Shown: piece after piece, positions 1 to 7,711 of the stretch | How positions within the stretch are numbered: position 1 is the first letter of the stretch | Layout: every line of letters starts with the position of its first letter | Source: Ruegeria profundi | Lineage (GTDB): Bacteria > Pseudomonadota > Alphaproteobacteria > Rhodobacterales > Rhodobacteraceae | Reading direction: 5' to 3' | Length of the DNA stretch: 64,000 nucleotides | Assembly (NCBI RefSeq): GCF_001507545.1 | Contig: NZ_LQBP01000003.1 | Coordinates: 248,001-312,000 of the forward strand | Made by a program: the position numbers and the translations under genes | Notes under the pieces: generated by a model | Databases searched by the model: none | Seen by the model: only the letters and a program-made list of their open reading frames with translations | Told to the model about the DNA's origin: nothing

Positions 1-2
1 AG

Positions 3-671
3 AAGCTGAGGCCCGTGACCCGAGAAGAGGCTGAAAGCCTTTTGTCCTACATCGCTGACAATGATGGCCTCAAGTATCAGTTTGAAATGTTCGTTACCGT
101 AAGGTTGCTCTGGGTTACCGGATGCCGACTGAATGAAATCTGTGGGCGCTATTTGTCGGACATAGAGGACAAGGGGGATCACATCCGCATCAACATCCCT
201 GAGGCCAAGACCGAGGCAGGGAAGAGGACGGTTATGATTGTCGGTGATGATGATTGTGCGTTGCTCAGAGAGGCAATCAAGAGGGCAGGTATCGTAGAAC
301 CTTCATGCCCCGAGAACGTAGGTCGGTTGTTCCCAAGGATTGCCCTAGGTGGTTACGACAAGCAGCCTAGCCATTACCTCGGGAAAGCCTTGGAGAAGGC
401 GAGAAAGAAATTGGATGGTGATCATTCCAAGTGGGATATGCACTCGTTCAGAAGAACCGCTGTATCGGCTTTGGTGAACGCAGGGGTTGCTAAGGAAGCT
501 AGAAACCTTGCTGTCGGTCACTCGAACAAGGATGACATAGGGGTTAGCGTCTACGCGAAGAGGGCTGAGTTGGATGGTGTAATCAAAGCAACCTTCGAGG
601 CGCTTTATGATGAACTTGGGGGAAGCCTAGTGTCCGAAAAAGTTCCAAGTGAGAAGTTAAATTCCCACTAG
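3..671 (+). CDS. Tyrosine recombinase/integrase, 5' truncated by window edge
   Basis: Site-specific recombinase that would insert and excise the element by strand exchange at its attachment sites. The reading frame is open to the window edge, so only the catalytic domain is seen; a GTG at 15 is internal rather than a real start. Counting from that GTG, the catalytic residues are R38 (TGCRLNE), a lysine around 65-70, the HxxR pair H143/R146 (MHSFRRT), H169 (VGHS) and the nucleophile Y180. All expected residues are present, so the enzyme should be active. A tRNA-Leu 3' fragment at 7657-7711 is the probable recombination scar. The protein family is certain; the subfamily is not. Confidence 0.9.
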   Translation, partial: KLRPVTREEAESLLSYIADNDGLKYQFEMFVTVRLLWVTGCRLNEICGRYLSDIEDKGDHIRINIPEAKTEAGKRTVMIVGDDDCALLREAIKRAGIVEPSCPENVGRLFPRIALGGYDKQPSHYLGKALEKARKKLDGDHSKWDMHSFRRTAVSALVNAGVAKEARNLAVGHSNKDDIGVSVYAKRAELDGVIKATFEALYDELGGSLVSEKVPSEKLNSH

Positions 672-768
672 ACCGAGCGAGCATTGTGATTGGTAATCAG
701 ATTGGTTTTCAGTTTAAAAATTAAGTGATAACAGAGGGTAAGTACCCAAAGTTACTAGAGAGTTCTGA

Positions 769-1680
769 ATGATCCCTGACTACCAATCGCTAATGCGCCC
801 AGTCCTTGAATGTGCCCGAGTTAAGCCGCGGAATATTTCTGATGTAGTTGAAGAGGTATCAGATAAATTAGGCCTGACGCAGGAAGAGCGTGATCAACTC
901 CTACCAAGCGGAACACAGACAACCATTCGAAACCGCGTTCATTGGGCTCGTTCTTACATGAAACAGGCGGGACTTGTGCGAAACGTCAAGCGTGGTTGGT
1001 ACGAGTTAACTGATCGCGGCCGGGAAGTTTTAAACAACCCTGAAATTGAGTTAAACACGAAGTTTTTGGAGCAGTTCGATGAATTCCAAGACTTCAAAAA
1101 CCGAACACGTGAAGATGGTTCAAACTTAGAATTTAACGGAAAAGAAGACAGTAAAACACCTGATGAAAACCTTCAAGCCGCTCATGCTCGGCTCTCAGCG
1201 GAAACAGCGGCAAATTTGCTGGACTTAGTGAGAACCGCATCACCTGCATTCTTTGAGACTTTGATTGTCGATTTACTGATTGCAATGGGATACGGAGGAG
1301 CCTCAAAAGATGCAGGACGTGCATTAGGACAATCCGGTGACAACGGTGTTGACGGTGTGATTGACCAAGACCCACTGGGGGTCGACCAGATTTATCTTCA
1401 AGCCAAGAGATACGCTTCTGGTAATTCTGTTGGTCCAGGAGAGATAAGGGACTTCTACGGTGCGCTCAGCATCAAGAAAGCGACCAAAGGAATTTTTGTT
1501 ACTACGTCGACGTTTACGAATTCGGCTTCACAGACAGCAAAAGACTTGGGCTCTCGCATCGTGCTTATTGATGGGTTGCAACTTTCTCGCCTTATGCTGC
1601 GGTACAATATTGGCTGTAGAGACAAAGAAGTATTGCATATCAAGCAGATTGATGAAGGTTACTTCGAAGAGAACGGCTGA
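769..1680 (+). CDS. Mrr-like restriction endonuclease
   Basis: Probable type IV or modification-dependent restriction enzyme, which cuts foreign methylated DNA in the cytoplasm. The N-terminal 110 residues look like the winged-helix Mrr_N domain (WYELTDRGREVL near residues 77-88). The C-terminal half is a PD-(D/E)xK fold of the Mrr type: the conserved D195 in the GVDG motif is followed by Q211-x-K213 in YLQAKRY, the Q-x-K variant typical of Mrr. A further family hallmark is the segment GIFVTTSTFTNSA. It stands alone, about 100 bases after the integrase, without a methylase, which agrees with a methyl-dependent enzyme. It is likely cargo that protects the element or host against incoming phage or plasmids. 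The substrate is not predictable. Confidence 0.85.
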   Translation: MIPDYQSLMRPVLECARVKPRNISDVVEEVSDKLGLTQEERDQLLPSGTQTTIRNRVHWARSYMKQAGLVRNVKRGWYELTDRGREVLNNPEIELNTKFLEQFDEFQDFKNRTREDGSNLEFNGKEDSKTPDENLQAAHARLSAETAANLLDLVRTASPAFFETLIVDLLIAMGYGGASKDAGRALGQSGDNGVDGVIDQDPLGVDQIYLQAKRYASGNSVGPGEIRDFYGALSIKKATKGIFVTTSTFTNSASQTAKDLGSRIVLIDGLQLSRLMLRYNIGCRDKEVLHIKQIDEGYFEENG

Positions 1681-1818
1681 TTTTCTACAAAAAATCTGTG
1701 TAGGTATATATTGGTGGTCGTGGTCTGGTTACCCCCCGGTCCCCCCAAGCAAACCCTGAGCAACCGACAGTCCACCCGAGCAACGACAGGACAAGGTAGT
1801 TAGGTTGCCATTAGGAGA

Positions 1819-1891
1819 ACACACGCGCTCACCTCTGCCCGTGGTCAGGTAATAAAGCTGCATATGGACCACACACGCGCTCACCTCTGCC
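1819..1891. repeat. Two exact 21-bp direct repeats
   Basis: Copies at 1819-1839 and 1871-1891 share the same 21 bases, beginning ACACACGCGCTC and ending CTCTGCC, with start points 52 bases apart. They lie in noncoding DNA of the element. They may be binding sites for an element protein such as an excisionase, replication initiator or repressor. Confidence 0.8.
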
Positions 1892-2065
1892 TGAGGCCAG
1901 ATAGAAAACCCTCCATTATGAATACACACACCCTCAAGTTTGCAGGGTATGAGTAAGGATACTCACAGTGAACCTTTAGTTTACAATGAGTTAGGCTTTG
2001 AGTTGTGTGTGGGTTGTACGGGAATGTAGGGAAAAACCCCTCATTATGAGAATACATACTCTGTC

Positions 2066-2169
2066 GTTCCGAGGCAGCTTGGGACAATTAAGGCCCCGTA
2101 TAGAATACAATCGAGTTCCAAGGCGGCTTGGGACAATAGAATTGCCGTATAGAGTACAACCAAGTTCCC
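2066..2169. repeat. Tandem 49-bp repeats, two full units and a start of a third
   Basis: Units start at 2066, 2115 and 2164 with an exact 49-base period. Each begins GTTCC, then AGGC(A/G)GCTTGGGACAAT, a variable middle, and a (C/G)CCGTATAGA(A/G)TACAA end. The third copy is reduced to GTTCC. Contiguous repeats of this length, close to four and a half to five helical turns, are compatible with iterons or repeated promoters. They are not CRISPR: there are no spacers. Confidence 0.8.
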
Positions 2170-2272
2170 ATACTCGGGCGCGAACTCAGGTTTTATTTGA
2201 ACAGTACTCCATGACCTTCTTGCGAGTAGTTCGCAACTAGCGAGTTCTTTGCGCATAATTCCCAAACACTTT

Positions 2273-2294
2273 TTGGTCGATCAGTTGGTCGATC
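2273..2294. repeat. Two TTGGTCGATC boxes 12 bp apart
   Basis: TTGGTCGATC occurs at 2273-2282 and again at 2285-2294, about 50 bases before the helicase start. An inverted GATCGACC occurs at 2408-2415 inside the helicase gene. Position directly ahead of the helicase suggests an operator or helicase loading site; this is inference. Confidence 0.55.
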
Positions 2295-2344
2295 TCTACC
2301 ACATATTTTTTATTCAAAAACATAGCACTCAAGAAAGAAGCTAA

Positions 2345-3697
2345 ATGAAACACAACCATAATTTTGACAAACCCAAGTCCACTCAAGTCAGACCTGTAGT
2401 AATTATTGATCGACCTTGCGGCACTGGCAAGACAACCGAGATGATCGCAGGTCTTGTAGAGTCCAAGAGATACCTGGTCGTAACGCCGCTCCTATCAGAA
2501 TGCGAACGTATCATCAGAGATGCTCGCGTTGCTTTCATGCAGCCCGAGGTAATCCAAGATGACCCTGAGATTGACACCAAGAAAGACCATCTGATTGCCC
2601 TGCTAGAAGCTAGGCACAATGTCGTCACCACTCATGCAATGTTCAACAACCTCGCAGACGTGGAAAAAATGGGCCTCTTGGATGGTTACGAAATCATCAT
2701 TGATGAGGTCATGTCTGTTGTTGATGACGGTTACCGAGTTAAGAAAAAGACTTGGGAACAGTTCTACGTGAATGACGGGTACGTTGATATTAATCCAGAT
2801 ACCGGATTGATAACTCCCACTGATCTCTGGGTTGAACATTTAGAAGACGTAGATGATGCCCTAAGCACCTCTCTCTACCATGCTGCCAACGCTGGTCGTC
2901 TCTATCATCTTTCTGATGGTATCAATCTCGCGGTAATGCCTGAAGGTCTACTGAAGGCTGGTAACTCCCTGACTGTCTACACCTACAAGGCAGAGGGTTC
3001 GATCATGTTTGCTTATCTCAAGCGTCTCGGATTGGACCCAGTGCATGACACTGGTTCACCAGAAATCGAGCAACGCTTTGTAAGACAGGCAAGGGAATTG
3101 ATAACCGTTAAAGACATTCGAACTCTTCGCGGTATCAACCTGAGTTACACCAGTCAGACTAAGACAAACTCCAAGAAGCTAGACGAGTTGGTACCGAAAG
3201 CCCTGAGTGGCCTGAGGCGTAACCGTATGTCCGAGGTATGGTTGCCTGACATTCTGATCACGACACCAAAGAGTAAGTGGTATCGAAAAGGGAAAGACCC
3301 TAAAATTGGTGAGTGCGGTGAATTGCTTACACCGTTCAAACCCGGTCCTTATGCGAGTGGTAGTCGTCTCTCACCCGCTGGTCACACTGAGGTCCGCGCT
3401 ACGTGGGTCCCAAATACAACCCGAGGCACCAACGACTACAAACACTGCACCCATGCAATTTACCTCTATGACCAAAACATCAATCCTTCGATCTTGAATT
3501 GGTTCGGTGGACCGAAGGTAATTTCCAATGATGATTATGCCCTGACGGAATTGATCCAATGGCTTTGGAGGACCCAAGTCAGAGATGGGTATCCTATCAC
3601 TTTGTTTCTACCATCTCAGCGTATGCAGGAGTTGCTCTTGAATTGGCTTTGGGAAGGACAAATCCCACCAAACGAATGGCGTAAAATCAGGGCGTAG
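2345..3697 (+). CDS. Superfamily 2-like helicase/ATPase, probable replication protein
   Basis: Probable DNA helicase that would act in replication of the element. The Walker A loop is at residues 22-30 (DRPCGTGKT), with TTHAMF at 95-100 and Walker B IIIDEVM at 117-123. The C-terminal part, from about residue 355, has RGTNDYKHCTHAIYL and then LIQWLWRTQVRDG, which fit helicase motifs V and VI, so the ATPase core appears complete at 450 residues. This arrangement is like origin-binding or DEAD-type helicases found in phages and plasmids of marine bacteria. It follows a repeat-rich noncoding region, which fits a helicase that loads at an adjacent origin. No primase domain is visible. The start at 2345 has an upstream GAAAGAAG. 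Confidence 0.7.
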   Translation: MKHNHNFDKPKSTQVRPVVIIDRPCGTGKTTEMIAGLVESKRYLVVTPLLSECERIIRDARVAFMQPEVIQDDPEIDTKKDHLIALLEARHNVVTTHAMFNNLADVEKMGLLDGYEIIIDEVMSVVDDGYRVKKKTWEQFYVNDGYVDINPDTGLITPTDLWVEHLEDVDDALSTSLYHAANAGRLYHLSDGINLAVMPEGLLKAGNSLTVYTYKAEGSIMFAYLKRLGLDPVHDTGSPEIEQRFVRQARELITVKDIRTLRGINLSYTSQTKTNSKKLDELVPKALSGLRRNRMSEVWLPDILITTPKSKWYRKGKDPKIGECGELLTPFKPGPYASGSRLSPAGHTEVRATWVPNTTRGTNDYKHCTHAIYLYDQNINPSILNWFGGPKVISNDDYALTELIQWLWRTQVRDGYPITLFLPSQRMQELLLNWLWEGQIPPNEWRKIRA

Positions 3698-3700
3698 AAA

Positions 3701-3730
3701 GCCTACAGCCAAATGCATCGTGCTGTAGGC
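3701..3730 (+). terminator. Hairpin after helicase gene
   Basis: A 9-bp perfect stem, GCCTACAGC (3701-3709) with GCTGTAGGC (3722-3730), starts four bases after the helicase stop. It is followed by CTGAAAAAGC rather than a T run, so it may be an mRNA end-protecting structure or a weak terminator. Confidence 0.5.
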
Positions 3731-3787
3731 CTGAAAAAGCATTTAAAAACAGATACTTAAGAGGCATACCCGTAAAGAAAAAACACT

Positions 3788-3830
3788 TTAGGGAAGACAA
3801 TGATAATAATCATTTTTGTCTTCTCCCTAA
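3788..3830. terminator. Long bulged hairpin, candidate terminator
   Basis: The arms TTAGGGA...AGACA...ATGAT and ATCAT...TGTCT...TCCCTAA close around AATA, with two small bulges. The total span is 43 bases. The right arm contains a short TTTTT. It is the second of three successive hairpins between the helicase and the next gene. Confidence 0.5.
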
Positions 3831-3866
3831 GTCCACTCTGGCACTGACTCAGGTCAGAACAGACAG

Positions 3867-3893
3867 CTCACCGCGCTTCCTATCAGCGGTGAG
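3867..3893. other. 8-bp hairpin
   Basis: CTCACCGC at 3867-3874 pairs perfectly with GCGGTGAG at 3886-3893 around an 11-base loop, about 30 bases before the next gene. It is the third of three successive hairpins; it could shape the leader of the gene at 3923. Confidence 0.45.
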
Positions 3894-3922
3894 TCACCCA
3901 GTTCAACGAAAGAAAACAGAAG

Positions 3923-4336
3923 GTGAAACCAACAGTACTCAAAGAGTCCAACCCAAAGTATCACAGGGTCCTATACATCCAAGATGATTGGCGAATAATC
4001 CTCTGCAAAGACGGTCTTCAATACATCATCCAAAGACAAAAGAACAAAGGGAAACGAGGGCAGGAGTGGGAAGGTCGCAAGTATTGCGTGACTTCCAAAG
4101 CCCTAATCAGGGAATGGTCCAAGGTTATGCGATTATCAAATAATCATGATGATCCAATCCCGAACGAGATTTCTTGTCTTCCAAGCTATGCTCATGATCT
4201 TGTCTCCAACGGCCCTAGTGAGGCGTTGAGAGCGGGGGTGCAGAGACCCAAGGCCCCTCAAGTAAACTCAGGTCTCCAACAGCCAATACCTCTGTCCACC
4301 CCCGGTGAAACCGAGGAAGCCATAGGTTCTCCTTAA
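3923..4336 (+). CDS. Element protein of unknown function (137 aa)
   Basis: I do not recognise this protein. The first 75 residues are basic and mixed (WRIILCKDGLQYIIQRQ, then EGRKYCVTSKALIREW) and read like a compact folded domain; the last 60 residues are rich in proline, serine and glutamine and look disordered. The start is a GTG at 3923, with the motif CAACGAAAGA ending ten bases before it, a motif that also precedes the genes at 4445 and 5611. The gene follows three hairpins and precedes another unknown gene on the same strand. The real start could be slightly different because AGAAGG abuts the GTG. Confidence 0.6.
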   Translation: MKPTVLKESNPKYHRVLYIQDDWRIILCKDGLQYIIQRQKNKGKRGQEWEGRKYCVTSKALIREWSKVMRLSNNHDDPIPNEISCLPSYAHDLVSNGPSEALRAGVQRPKAPQVNSGLQQPIPLSTPGETEEAIGSP

Positions 4337-4444
4337 GATGGCGGAGTACCTGACCATCATTCTTAGTCACTTCAACGAAGTCATTTTCTATGTCGGTCAA
4401 CTGGAAAGGTTGACTGACGACAAAACGAAAGAACAACCAATTCA

Positions 4445-4723
4445 ATGAATAATAAATTCAAGACCTTCGCTCTTTGCGAATATTTCCGAGACAAACCAGA
4501 TGGTGAGTACTACCCATTCACAGTCAGTACCGACCTTGGTCTCTCTAATGCCAACTGGCGGCGCTATGCGTTGACCCATCTATACCCTGAGGGTTCAGAG
4601 GCGAGACAAGAACTTGCCAAGGTAGGGGTATCAATCAAGACGCTACCCACGCCCAAGGAAATCCGAGGCAGTAAGATTATCATTTCGACATTCGTGAAAG
4701 AGACAACCATCCAAGATGCCTAA
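4445..4723 (+). CDS. Element protein of unknown function (92 aa)
   Basis: This is a small unrecognised protein with no membrane segment or cysteine motif. The sequence starts with aromatic, charged segments (LCEYFRDKPDGEYYPF) and ends with a beta-rich stretch (SKIIISTFVKET). AAACGAAAGA sits 12 bases before the ATG. Its end overlaps the next gene by eight bases, which suggests translational coupling with the zinc-finger-like protein at 4716. A DNA-replication or regulatory role is possible from context only. Confidence 0.65.
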   Translation: MNNKFKTFALCEYFRDKPDGEYYPFTVSTDLGLSNANWRRYALTHLYPEGSEARQELAKVGVSIKTLPTPKEIRGSKIIISTFVKETTIQDA

Positions 4724-5585
4724 GTTACCTTTGTCTACCATCCCCGCGGGGGAGCGTAGCAGAGCGTCACGAGAGGCACTCAGGCAAAGACGACTAGCAC
4801 AAGAGAGGATCAATAAACTCAACCCATGTGCTGTTGTCGGATGCGACAAGCCTAGGCGCGGCGTCTCTGTCTATTGCCAAGAGCATTACCAACGGAACCG
4901 TAGGTACGGACACCCTACAGGACGTCTGCCAACCCAAGGTGAACTGAAAGCCCTCGAAGCCGCTATCAAAGCATGGCTCGAAGAGGACTATCTAACCACC
5001 GACTTTGCCAAGCGTTCCTTCAAGTCCTCTTGGGGTTCCGCCCAGCGCACCATTACCCACAACCCAGCCTTTGCTCTGCCGTTCTTTCGGCTTGAGGGGG
5101 ACATGGGTTACACCCAGAAGGCTAAAGCCTGGGTGATCCTCTCCAACTACGTTCACCGACAAGGGAACTCGCTGTCAGATGCAATGGTCCGGTATATGGC
5201 CTGTCGTATGTGGTCAGAGTTCCACTGGCAGATGCCTGAGGGCAAACGAGGGGCGGCTAAGGCCCGTAATTTCTTTGTCGATACATGGGCAGGGAAGTTT
5301 GTCTTGGCTCACTCAGGGTTCACCAAGACCAAGACGACAGAGAAGATCATCCGTTGGGCAAAGCCTTGGTACATCTCGGATGATCCTGTCCAGAACGAAC
5401 CCCGTCCTATCAAGGAAAAGGTGACAAAGAAGGTCACCATCAACCGCTTCAAGGCAGGACCCATTGTCCGTGCCATTGGAAAGGAACTCCAATCCGCTGT
5501 CGATCACGCGATGGGCAAAGCTTGGTGTTCCGACCATCGCCTTCTTGAGAAGGCACACGAGGCTCTTGGCCTCTCACTCAAATAA
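4716..5585 (+). CDS. Element protein with N-terminal zinc-finger-like motif (289 aa)
   Basis: Function is unknown. Around residues 38-58 there is a C-x4-C-x11-C-x2-H pattern (PCAVVGCDKP, then YCQEHYQRNRRYG) that looks like a small zinc-binding, nucleic-acid-contacting module seen in many phage proteins, including some HNH nucleases; no HNH catalytic core is visible here. The first 30 residues are arginine-rich and helical. The middle is rich in tryptophan and basic residues, and the C-terminus has several lysine clusters (KEKVTKKVTINRFK). A DNA-binding role is plausible. It is coupled by overlap to the gene at 4445. Confidence 0.65.
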   Translation: MPKLPLSTIPAGERSRASREALRQRRLAQERINKLNPCAVVGCDKPRRGVSVYCQEHYQRNRRYGHPTGRLPTQGELKALEAAIKAWLEEDYLTTDFAKRSFKSSWGSAQRTITHNPAFALPFFRLEGDMGYTQKAKAWVILSNYVHRQGNSLSDAMVRYMACRMWSEFHWQMPEGKRGAAKARNFFVDTWAGKFVLAHSGFTKTKTTEKIIRWAKPWYISDDPVQNEPRPIKEKVTKKVTINRFKAGPIVRAIGKELQSAVDHAMGKAWCSDHRLLEKAHEALGLSLK

Positions 5586-5610
5586 TTCTTCAAACGAAAG
5601 AGATTAATAA

Positions 5611-6387
5611 ATGACAATTGAAACAATAAACGAAACCAACGCAGTCCCCGGTAGCAACCTCAGCAACAGCAACGAACTTACAACCTCTGTTCGAGATGTG
5701 AACGCAGAGAACCGAGCCAAGGGCCACTACCACGAAGCATCGACATTCATCCCTGACAAAGAGTTCAACAACAATCTGGATGTGGTCATCCGTGATGGCT
5801 CTAGGGTTCACTCAGGGGGTCAGTATCGACCCAATGATATCGTGATGATCAACGGCACCACGATGGAATACGAGATGGCCCAAAGCCTAGGGCTGTTGAC
5901 GGGGAACCAATTCACGACACCACAAGAGAGTTTTCAAGAAACCTCTGCCGAGAACAGCGCGGAACCTGAGGCCACCGATGATCGACCATTGGAAACCCGA
6001 GTTCTACAGGACCAATTTGAGTTGGCCTTTGGTGAGAACAGCGAGGCCGCTTTGAATACCTTAGGTCAGGATATCGTCATGAATGGCGAACTGAGCGAAC
6101 ACGGGATCAACTTCTTGCATGAGAAGATGGGCGTATCTGAGCAGCGATACCAAGAAACATTTTCAGAGATGCAGGAAGTAGGGGGTCAGGTGTTAAGCCA
6201 GTACCTTGAAACGGGTGATGGTCTTTCGTTGGATCGTATCGAGTTTCTTGTTGATCTTGCTGAGACAGGAACAAAAGACCAGCAAGCCACTGTTCGGAAT
6301 ATCTGGTTCAAGGCCGCTACAGGCCAGTTGTCCCGAGACCAAGCCATTGAAGCCTTCGATCACCTTTGGGAGCCTTATGATGGCTGA
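5611..6387 (+). CDS. Acidic element protein, possibly scaffold-like (258 aa)
   Basis: I do not recognise this protein. It is strongly acidic, lacks cysteine and membrane segments, and is predicted mostly polar and helical. An N-terminal 40 residues rich in Asn, Thr and Ser lead into a short ordered stretch (VVIRDGSRVHSGGQYRPND), then a disordered Glu/Ser region around residues 108-135, then a helical C-terminal half. Composition and position immediately before a small-terminase-like gene are like phage scaffolding proteins, but this is weak evidence. AAACGAAAGA sits nine bases before the ATG. It overlaps the next gene by eight bases. Confidence 0.6.
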   Translation: MTIETINETNAVPGSNLSNSNELTTSVRDVNAENRAKGHYHEASTFIPDKEFNNNLDVVIRDGSRVHSGGQYRPNDIVMINGTTMEYEMAQSLGLLTGNQFTTPQESFQETSAENSAEPEATDDRPLETRVLQDQFELAFGENSEAALNTLGQDIVMNGELSEHGINFLHEKMGVSEQRYQETFSEMQEVGGQVLSQYLETGDGLSLDRIEFLVDLAETGTKDQQATVRNIWFKAATGQLSRDQAIEAFDHLWEPYDG

Positions 6388-6625
6388 GGATAGCATCAAG
6401 AACGCGACCCAAGGCGAACTTGAGGAACTCAATGGATTGCTCATCCGTGAGTTAATCGGAAAGATCAGGGAAGGTACCGCCAATGGTACCGACCTTTCAA
6501 CGGCAGCGAAGCTGGTATTGTCGAACAAGGTTGAACCGATCGACCCGAGGGTTCCGACAACGTCCTACCACAACCAGATGCCAAGCGAACACTTGGATTA
6601 CCCAGTGGATGTGGACGCCATTTAG
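6380..6625 (+). CDS. Small terminase-like protein (81 aa)
   Basis: A short acidic protein whose core, LEELNGLLIRELIGKIREGTANGTDLSTAAKLV in outline, follows the pattern of T7-type small terminase subunits (a helix of the type LHxxL-x-LxxxIRxGxAxxxDLxxAxxxL, then a disordered tail). Small terminases select phage DNA for packaging; a lone small terminase is a hallmark of phage satellites that hijack a helper. I assign this by pattern, not by alignment. I chose the ATG at 6380 because GGGAG at 6368-6372 is seven bases upstream; the ATG at 6377 is an alternative. It overlaps the preceding gene by eight bases. Confidence 0.55.
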   Translation: MAEDSIKNATQGELEELNGLLIRELIGKIREGTANGTDLSTAAKLVLSNKVEPIDPRVPTTSYHNQMPSEHLDYPVDVDAI

Positions 6626-6657
6626 GAGGTTACGGGATTTGCTGAGACTGTTGCGGA

Positions 6658-6900
6658 TTATTCAGCTTTGTTTTTGGCAATTTTTGTCAGAAGCCCGAGA
6701 GCGACGCCGACCACAAGCATTATCATACCATCGTTGATAGCTTCGCCAGAGCTTGCCCTAGCCAAGTATCTCTTCGCCGCGGCAGTATTCTGTTCAGCGG
6801 TGAATGCAAAGGCCACATAGAACCCCATTGCAGTTCTTAAACCGCCCAGTGCAATCAGCGCCCAAGCAATAAACGAGCCAAGCTTAACCATTAATTCCAT
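6658..6900 (-). CDS. Small two-helix membrane protein (80 aa)
   Basis: This is the only gene of the element on the minus strand. It has one hydrophobic segment at about residues 6-32 (ending in ALIALGGLRTAMGF) and a second at about 57-73 (MIMLVVGVALGLLTKI), separated by a short polar stretch, so an inner-membrane hairpin is expected. Similar short proteins with a LGGLRxAMGF motif occur in Rhodobacterales genomes, without known function as far as I recall. It may be a moron-type gene transcribed independently. The ATG at 6891 is an alternative start, since TGGAA lies just before it. Confidence 0.6.
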   Translation of the reverse strand: MELMVKLGSFIAWALIALGGLRTAMGFYVAFAFTAEQNTAAAKRYLARASSGEAINDGMIMLVVGVALGLLTKIAKNKAE

Positions 6901-7036
6901 TCCATTTTTGAGTGCTGCTTTGGGATAATATCAAAGTAACGATGAGAGCAATGTGAAAAACCTGAATTCTTGAGAGTTCACATCCAGGCTTACCCTCGTA
7001 GCACCCAAGCTTTACGTGAAGGAACCATCAAAGTAG

Positions 7037-7528
7037 ATGCCTATATCTAATTACGACTCACAGAGCCTCTCAGTGGACTCAGAGCCGCCCAAAGCCCTCT
7101 CAGAGTCCCAACCTACCAAAAACCCATTAGGCCCACTCAGTGAGTCTCTCAGGGCCTCTCTGGGCGAACTGCCAGACGACGCCTTGTCGATCCTTGGGCC
7201 GGAACTCTTCGATCAAGCAAACAAAGAACTGAACCGTACCGCCAAGAGACGAGAAGCCAACTCTCTCAACGGCGTTCTTTACAATGCCATTGATGAACAA
7301 ATGAGATTCTTCTACCGCGACGAGAAGAGTAGGGCGCGGCACATGTACCAGAACATTGTCGGGTTGGTTTACCCTTGCTCCAAGACAGACACAGAGAAGC
7401 GTCGGTTGAACCAAGCATTTGAGGACGGTTGGGAGAGCGGTGACCTAGAGTTTCTTGCAAGTATACCGCGAGCCGACTTGGGGCTCTACATGAGTCAAGT
7501 TGACTCAGCCGTTACATGTACGGGTTGA
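7037..7528 (+). CDS. Element protein of unknown function, next to attachment site (163 aa)
   Basis: The protein is unrecognised. The first 45 residues are rich in Ser, Pro and Leu and probably disordered; the remainder is helical and charged (LFDQANKELNRTAKRREA, FFYRDEKSRARHMYQ). There are two cysteines and no membrane segment. It is the last gene before the tRNA-Leu fragment. Genes at this position in integrative elements are often accessory, but no function can be given. Confidence 0.6.
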   Translation: MPISNYDSQSLSVDSEPPKALSESQPTKNPLGPLSESLRASLGELPDDALSILGPELFDQANKELNRTAKRREANSLNGVLYNAIDEQMRFFYRDEKSRARHMYQNIVGLVYPCSKTDTEKRRLNQAFEDGWESGDLEFLASIPRADLGLYMSQVDSAVTCTG

Positions 7529-7656
7529 CCACCCCGATTCCGTTACAGTAAGGGTCGTACTCGCAGTACTTAACTGTGCGAAGAAACCAAGAAGGTCACG
7601 CGGTCAAAGACACCAGGTTTTCAGTGCGTTAGACGGAATGTTTACACGCGGTTTAC

Positions 7657-7711
7657 TTGAGGTCGCTGTGGGGTAACACCCGTGGAAGTTCGAGTCTTCT
7701 CGACCGCACCA
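7657..7711 (+). other. tRNA-Leu(GAG) 3' half, distal attachment site
   Basis: From the anticodon loop TTGAGGT (7657-7663) onward the sequence is a normal leucine tRNA: anticodon-stem 3' strand CGCTG, a long class II variable arm TGGGGTAACACCCG, T arm with GTTCGAGTC, acceptor strand CGACCGC and ACCA ending at 7711. The matching 5' parts are missing: the bases before the loop (TTTAC) do not pair with CGCTG, and no GCGGTCG acceptor strand or D arm is in the proper place. It is therefore a displaced tRNA 3' end left by integration, not a functional gene. Confidence 0.85.

Follow-up and report, generated by a model that had tools for sequence, protein, structure and literature searches.

SaPI1 and its relatives, the phage-inducible chromosomal islands (PICIs), carry a small terminase (TerS) of their own; Sid, the scaffold of the satellite P4, is an external scaffold on P2 heads; and tycheposons and virion-encapsidated integrative mobile elements (VEIMEs) use tRNA sites and tyrosine recombinases. 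T7 is a textbook phage, and among the literature matches listed, by their titles and the first parts of their abstracts, none deals with a satellite family parasitising T7-like phages. Here we describe an 8,432-bp integrative element of Ruegeria profundi, extending from position 7280 of the overlapping locus L004 to position 7711 of the window, i.e. the whole 64,000-nt stretch of DNA that was analysed (NZ_LQBP01000003.1, positions 248,001 to 312,000). We put at about 75% the probability that it is an integrative satellite of T7-like (Autographiviridae-type) phages in some form, including a form that contributes a TerS only. The fuller reading, in which a family of T7-like-phage satellites in Rhodobacterales encodes a scaffold (for small heads) and a TerS as an overlapping gene pair and carries exchangeable defence genes, is held tentatively, at slightly less than even odds. 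The element also has a tRNA site and a tyrosine recombinase, and is likened to tycheposons and VEIMEs by description only.

According to the available part of the SaPI1 account (PMC5644958), PICIs have an integrase acting at a fixed site and an alternative scaffold (CpmB) that redirects helper heads. The present element is again likened to them by description only, and it differs in its T7-type TerS, its alphaproteobacterial host and the lack of a recognised Stl or AlpA. The phage-inducible chromosomal minimalist islands (PICMIs) are likewise small satellites, of virulent phages, with an integrase and few genes, but in the available text they adjoin fis, carry AlpA and a primase and belong to Vibrionaceae (PMC10803314), whereas our element is located at tRNA-Leu(gag). 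In the same partial text PICMIs encode no capsid remodelling, the word 'terminase' is absent and 'terS' occurs once, while tycheposons and VEIMEs are presented as integrative elements found in marine bacteria and presumed to travel inside virions (PMC10803314). P4, in the excerpt available, is a satellite with its own capsid-size-determining scaffold Sid (PMC7552001), whereas p258, the candidate scaffold of our element, resembles the internal scaffold of T7-like phages. The Autographiviridae, the T7-like family, rank among the ocean's most abundant phage families according to the part of the source available (PMC11092137). Three marine members, CRP-804, CRP-125 and HTVC011P, have a TerS and, more weakly, a scaffold related to p81 and p258 of the element; however, they are full phages of 38.9–41.6 kb, whereas in the element no family of RNA polymerase, portal, capsid, tail or large terminase was found.

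On profile evidence p81 is a T7-type TerS, and the remote terminase similarity that an earlier note on this DNA had supposed for the 81-residue protein was found by family, profile-profile, hidden Markov model (HMM) and reciprocal searches. Among Pfam families, the window p81 matches PF11123 (DNA_Packaging_2) best (expected value 0.0029; 18.1 bits, short of the curated 27.5), and this family matches all 3 p81 members scanned (best 8.6e-5), as does phrog_891 (terminase small subunit); phrog_1683 (2 of 3, best 0.0025) and PF24210, RIIA.1-like (2 of 3, best 0.00044), are also matched. In profile-profile comparison with 88 clusters, comprising the 140 annotated proteins of CRP-804, CRP-125 and HTVC011P and leaving out the TerS of T7, TerS ranked first at 95.5% (three p81 members) or 95.2% (five members), with the next cluster at 2.1% or less, and none of 150 column shuffles of p81 reached the TerS score. 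The probability was 91.5% against a smaller set that included T7 TerS and 96.6% (P 5.9e-10) against a deep profile of 60 TerS. The two deep profiles used in this work consist of 80 scaffold and 60 TerS unique sequences, for which 523 and 508 relatives, respectively, were reduced to the 80 best loci and supplemented in each case with three reference phages, and the broken p81 of Wenxinia marina (see below) was left out of all p81 alignments.

When the deep TerS HMM was searched against 3,299 open reading frames (ORFs) of the window and related loci, which overlap so that some ORFs are counted twice, the six rows obtained were all p81 orthologs, representing five distinct proteins (E 8e-7 to 0.001), with the window copy appearing twice through its overlap with L004. 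The reverse search ran a p81 profile over 763 ORFs from five phages, to which T7 contributed just 3,001 bases and CRP-804 and CRP-125 the first 38,500 each. The TerS of CRP-804 (1e-6), HTVC011P (2e-4) and CRP-125 (0.003) came out on top, that of T7 followed at E = 1 only, and SIO1, a roseophage from a different family, had no ORF at E ≤ 1. The relation is visible to profiles only, as BLASTP gave no alignment between p81 and the TerS of CRP-804 and a single-sequence search of p81 against 50,697 phage records gave nothing convincing.

The p258 gene directly precedes the p81 gene in the five loci where both are intact, overlapping it by 8 bp in the window element, and its product (isoelectric point, pI = 4.29), compared with the scaffolds of T7-like phages, is likely a scaffold of that type. 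Against the 88 clusters the scaffold came first at 76.4% with four members in the p258 profile, 73.7% with six, and 71.1% with addition of a distant p258-like protein from locus L060, which stood outside the main p258 alignment and was added to it for this one comparison only. The next cluster reached 1.7% at most, none of 150 and none of 100 column shuffles attained the scaffold score, and the control proteins p289 and p92 gave nothing above 2.1%. The match lies in the C-terminal half (about residues 148–235), and the stretch preceding it is the part in common with the L060 protein, which on its own ranked the scaffold first at only 12.1%, aligned elsewhere with the deep scaffold profile (21.3%) and had no PHROGs match at E ≤ 0.01. 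In the reverse search, the sole match of the p258 profile at E ≤ 1 among the 763 phage ORFs was the CRP-125 scaffold (E 0.057), and single-sequence searches with p258, and likewise with p289, against the 50,697 phage records gave nothing convincing. The evidence for TerS is much stronger than that for the scaffold. This imbalance speaks for a variant which we consider somewhat unlikely, namely a satellite with its own TerS and no capsid remodelling, in which p258 would have a regulatory, replication or anti-helper role and the DNA would be packaged as concatemers in full-size heads, as described for PICMI115 in the available part of that report (PMC10803314); it has to account for an acidic protein whose gene stands directly before p81 in all five intact loci and whose profile ranks the scaffold first in three builds.

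Four further elements, all from one GTDB family, have the integrase, p92, p289, p258 and p81, with other cargo and other insertion sites than the window element (Table 1). They were found in Wenxinia marina DSM 24838 (Rhodobacterales, Roseobacteraceae in the NCBI taxonomy) and in genomes G397, G400 and G197, and a fifth, cut by a contig end, in G267. The earlier note had proposed looking for the same gene set in other Rhodobacterales at tRNA-Leu; the operon exists in that order, one copy lying at another tRNA-Leu, but others are at tRNA-Thr and tRNA-Tyr. With profiles of p289 or p258, and counting the window's genome each time, matches were obtained in the genus (3 of 54 genomes), the family (5 of 394; four strong, one weak), the order (6 of 390; three clear, one fragment, two marginal) and the class (3 of 385; only the window's own strong). 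Not counted as members were G141 and G471 (marginal matches), G901 (weak match), G1050 (a p289 match at 6e-8 with no other operon gene at E ≤ 0.1), G624 (a p289 fragment at a contig start, 1.8e-36) and G313, whose locus L060 encodes the distant p258-like protein and has no TerS match.

The cargo of four elements contains matches to defence models. The window element carries an Mrr nuclease, whose gene has no match in the loci of the relatives; G397 carries a protein combining SIR2 with NB-ARC and TPR, and has two matches to the candidate defence models PDC-S31; G400 carries an OLD/GajA-like ATPase and a KAP NTPase matching PifA (PADLOC 3.7e-51); and Wenxinia carries methylase and specificity proteins, type I-like. 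A DUF4145 protein is present in G197, and two further proteins of G400 and one of G397 had no defence match. PifA is the F-plasmid protein that excludes T7, and the PifA-like KAP NTPase (L039:13199-15364) lies inside the G400 element, a presumed satellite of T7-like phages. Such cargo would also suit an integrative defence island moved by conjugation, natural uptake or general transduction, with p81 serving as a decoy that disturbs phage terminase, and packaging is not among the observations; we nevertheless consider this improbable, as no relaxase or conjugation family was matched at E ≤ 1 by the 10 proteins scanned (integrase, Mrr nuclease, helicase-like protein and seven small proteins) and p258 and p81 remain paired across genera while the cargo changes.

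The gene content proposed in the earlier note is confirmed. The tRNA-targeting integrase is borne out as a tyrosine integrase (PF00589, 6.2e-11; DUF6538, 2.9e-11), starting 44 bp past tRNA-Leu(gag) and flanked by att repeats of the 3' part of that gene, and so is the Mrr-type nuclease (PF04471, 2.8e-32; PF14338; PADLOC mREase_IV, 2e-79). The lack of portal, capsid and tail genes also holds, as neither these families nor the large terminase were matched at E ≤ 1, and no RNA polymerase or primase family was recognised. The element's own helicase is present as a helicase-like protein with a match to phrog_2467 (2.1e-42), a family of unknown function; Pfam DEAD appeared only below the cut-off. Its acidic scaffold-like protein is acidic and finds the scaffold as best of the 88 clusters, but at a probability of 56–76% and with no match to the deep HMM. 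The repeat-rich, origin-like DNA does contain imperfect direct repeats, which are origin-like in form only. The ORFs left of the tRNA, where full structural phage genes would have spoken against a satellite, resemble host genes by eye in their translations, e.g. a DsbA-like protein and a cytochrome oxidase subunit.

Ratios of nonsynonymous to synonymous substitution (dN/dS) among the window, G397 and G400 elements were 0.05–0.18 for p81, 0.13–0.15 for p289, 0.14–0.47 for p92, 0.28–0.35 for p163, 0.29 for p137, 0.05 for the integrase and 0.10 for one p258 pair; these values are rough, with many dS above 2 or saturated (including both other p258 pairs and the helicase). Judged by them, the element genes evolve under purifying selection. 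That the element is what remains of a decayed T7-like prophage, in which scaffold and TerS happened to survive, is highly improbable, for although CRP-804, CRP-125 and HTVC011P carry an annotated integrase, which makes lysogeny plausible, their scaffold and TerS genes are 16.1, 14.9 and 18.5 kb apart, respectively, as against adjacent genes here and in the relatives, dN/dS is low, RNA polymerase, portal, capsid and large terminase are missing from the 10 proteins, and the other small proteins, compared with the clusters with more members, reached only 1.6% (p289), 6.4% (p92, DNA polymerase cluster) and 3.0% or less (p163 and p137). For the helicase and integrase, the comparison covered just the deep profiles of scaffold and TerS.

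The satellite reading already put forward in the earlier note is supported by the TerS profile, the absent structural genes and the same operon in other Rhodobacterales. Several points weigh against it. Neither helper, excision, induction nor particle was observed, and no AlpA or Stl regulator was recognised among the 10 proteins, of which p92, p137 and p163 have no family assigned. The deep scaffold profile matched p258 only moderately (56.4%, P 1.1e-4), and its HMM found no ORF at E ≤ 10 among the 3,299. The predicted structure of p258 was poor (mean pLDDT, the predicted local distance difference test, 60.5) and gave no fold-search hit at E ≤ 0.001, and neither did that of p289 (pLDDT 70.0); both models were too weak and were counted neither way. 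For G197 and G267, neither p81 nor p258 matched PHROGs at E ≤ 0.01. In Wenxinia, p81 is out of frame, as read by eye from DNA that still matches, and the open integrase frame of G400 lacks any ATG, GTG or TTG start until about residue 55, so that these copies may be decayed. Scans of IMG/VR with the element proteins found no relative, a negative result weakened by the possibility that the collection omits elements without hallmark genes.

The element is bounded by 55-bp repeats of the 3' part of tRNA-Leu(gag). When the own genome was searched with bases 1–7711, the last 55 of these bases recurred 721 bp upstream of base 1, and the first 151 recurred on another contig at 95%; ARAGORN found no tRNA within the window itself. 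The G+C content of the element is 49.0%, versus 55.6% and 57.2% in the flanks. A search with the right flank, covering the downstream side only, showed that in 12 of 54 congeneric genomes (G396, G397, G398, G405, G407, G409, G411, G413, G416, G417, G418 and G433) the 3' end of the tRNA lies 78–109 bp from where the match to the downstream flank begins, as in an empty site. G397 is empty-site-like at tRNA-Leu(gag), its own element being located elsewhere in the genome.

Table 1. Features of the Ruegeria profundi element and of its relatives (positions are those of the window unless a locus is named)
Feature	Position	Strand	Remarks
tRNA-Leu(gag) gene	L004:7248-7334		ARAGORN
attL	L004:7280-7334		outside the window
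Tyrosine integrase, 3' part	1..671	+	430 aa in full; gene start L004:7379, 622 bp before the window
Mrr-type (type IV) restriction nuclease	769..1680	+	variable cargo
Conserved non-coding block	1680..1789		kept between elements; candidate replication or packaging site
Imperfect direct repeats	1809..2163		3 x 48 nt at 60–79%, 2 x 49 nt at 78%; origin-like in form only
Helicase-like protein	2345..3697	+	relative of SPbeta YonV and phrog_2467
p137	3923..4336	+	ortholog in G400 element
p92	4445..4723	+	small operon protein; 8-bp overlap with p289
p289	4716..5585	+	basic protein (pI = 10.1), N-terminal Cys/His motif
p258	5611..6387	+	acidic, candidate T7-type scaffold (C-terminal half matches)
p81	6380..6625	+	T7-type TerS by profile
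80-aa ORF	6658..6900	-	membrane-like by eye; uncertain gene status
p163	7037..7528	+	orthologs in G397, G400 and G267 loci
Conserved right-end block	7491..7563		overlaps p163 end; candidate integrase-arm, excision or packaging site
attR	7657..7711		55-bp copy of the tRNA-Leu(gag) 3' part
Wenxinia marina DSM 24838 element	L017		11.3 kb; tRNA-Leu(cag) at both contig ends
G397 element			15.5 kb; tRNA-Thr(tgt), 44-bp repeat
G400 element			15.5 kb; 62-bp repeat, tRNA 3' part by eye, one copy at contig end
G197 element			8.0 kb; between two identical tRNA-Tyr genes
G267 element			fifth element, broken by contig end; p258, p81 and p163 only

Two blocks of DNA are conserved between the elements. The non-coding one at 1680–1789 has 74–76% DNA identity to the G397 and G400 elements despite their other cargo, with only 16-nt matches in the Wenxinia or G197 elements. 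The right-end block is 89% identical across 73 bp in G397 and G400, with a shorter common core in the Wenxinia and G197 elements; because it ends 93 bp before attR, it fits integrase or excisionase arm sites, and alternatively it could be a packaging site. As an origin, the repeats at 1809–2163 are only possible. Equivalents in G397 and G400 were not found by 11-mer counts, a test also blind to the window's own repeats, as no 11-mer occurred more than twice in the window, G397 or G400 element. A motif, AACGAAAG, was dropped, having three copies in the window element and 0 or 1 in the four relatives. The 80-aa ORF has no homolog in the loci of the relatives, p289 had no plasmid match in the single-sequence search, and the 62-bp repeat of G400 was not called as a tRNA by ARAGORN. 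The ends of the Wenxinia contig (11,343 bp) have in common an exact 89-nt tRNA-Leu sequence, also found on two other contigs; either the assembly may have broken off at the att repeat or the contig may represent a circular form.

The helicase had no match in the G400 and G197 elements, which places it outside the core gene set. It is matched in 8 of 394 genomes of the family, the window's included, and in 5 of the 6 non-member loci an integrase-like ORF (three by phmmer, two by eye) was found beside a tRNA gene, with no operon gene. The helicase family occurs at L016, L018, L019 and L020 (G266, G271, G228 and G135, respectively) near such ORFs beside a tRNA, without p258 and p81, and in L019 it is followed by proteins of 1,282 and 329 aa of unknown kind.

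The tRNA-Leu(gag) site is a hotspot, in that the 8 congeners opened (L074–L081) show other integrase elements or other genes there, with no p81, p258, p289 or p92 profile match at E ≤ 0.01 among the occupants. In the genome of the window itself, a shortened and broken relative of the integrase adjoins tRNA-Leu(caa) at L005:7016-7636 (G000:C1, about 207,016-207,636) and is probably the scar of another such element. The G313 region (L060:4863-13814) contains a serine-recombinase-like ORF (by eye), the distant p258-like protein (246 aa), zinc-motif proteins and an amidase (phrog_822). Similar Cys-rich motif proteins were seen by eye in three otherwise different elements (L059:9646-10575, L060:7856-8338 and L077:4246-4704).

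If the element is a satellite of T7-like phages, infection by such a phage would lead the integrase to excise it, and the excised element would be amplified. The p81 TerS would then join the large terminase of the helper and direct satellite DNA into heads, while p258 would replace or compete with the helper scaffold, probably giving smaller heads for 8–15.5 kb of DNA. At 8.0–15.5 kb, the elements have about one fifth to two fifths of the length of the three phages (38.9–41.6 kb), which would fit either small heads or full heads filled with concatemers. After injection the satellite DNA would integrate at a tRNA gene, and the cargo it brings (Mrr in the window element) would defend the host from other phages.

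Should this be true, Wenxinia marina DSM 24838, which carries a relative, would be a named starting strain for a testable satellite-helper system. It would also suggest that the redirection of capsids by an alternative scaffold, known from P4, SaPI and phage-inducible chromosomal island-like element (PLE) cases in the partial sources available, arose against T7-type heads as well, and that defence genes travel on such elements.

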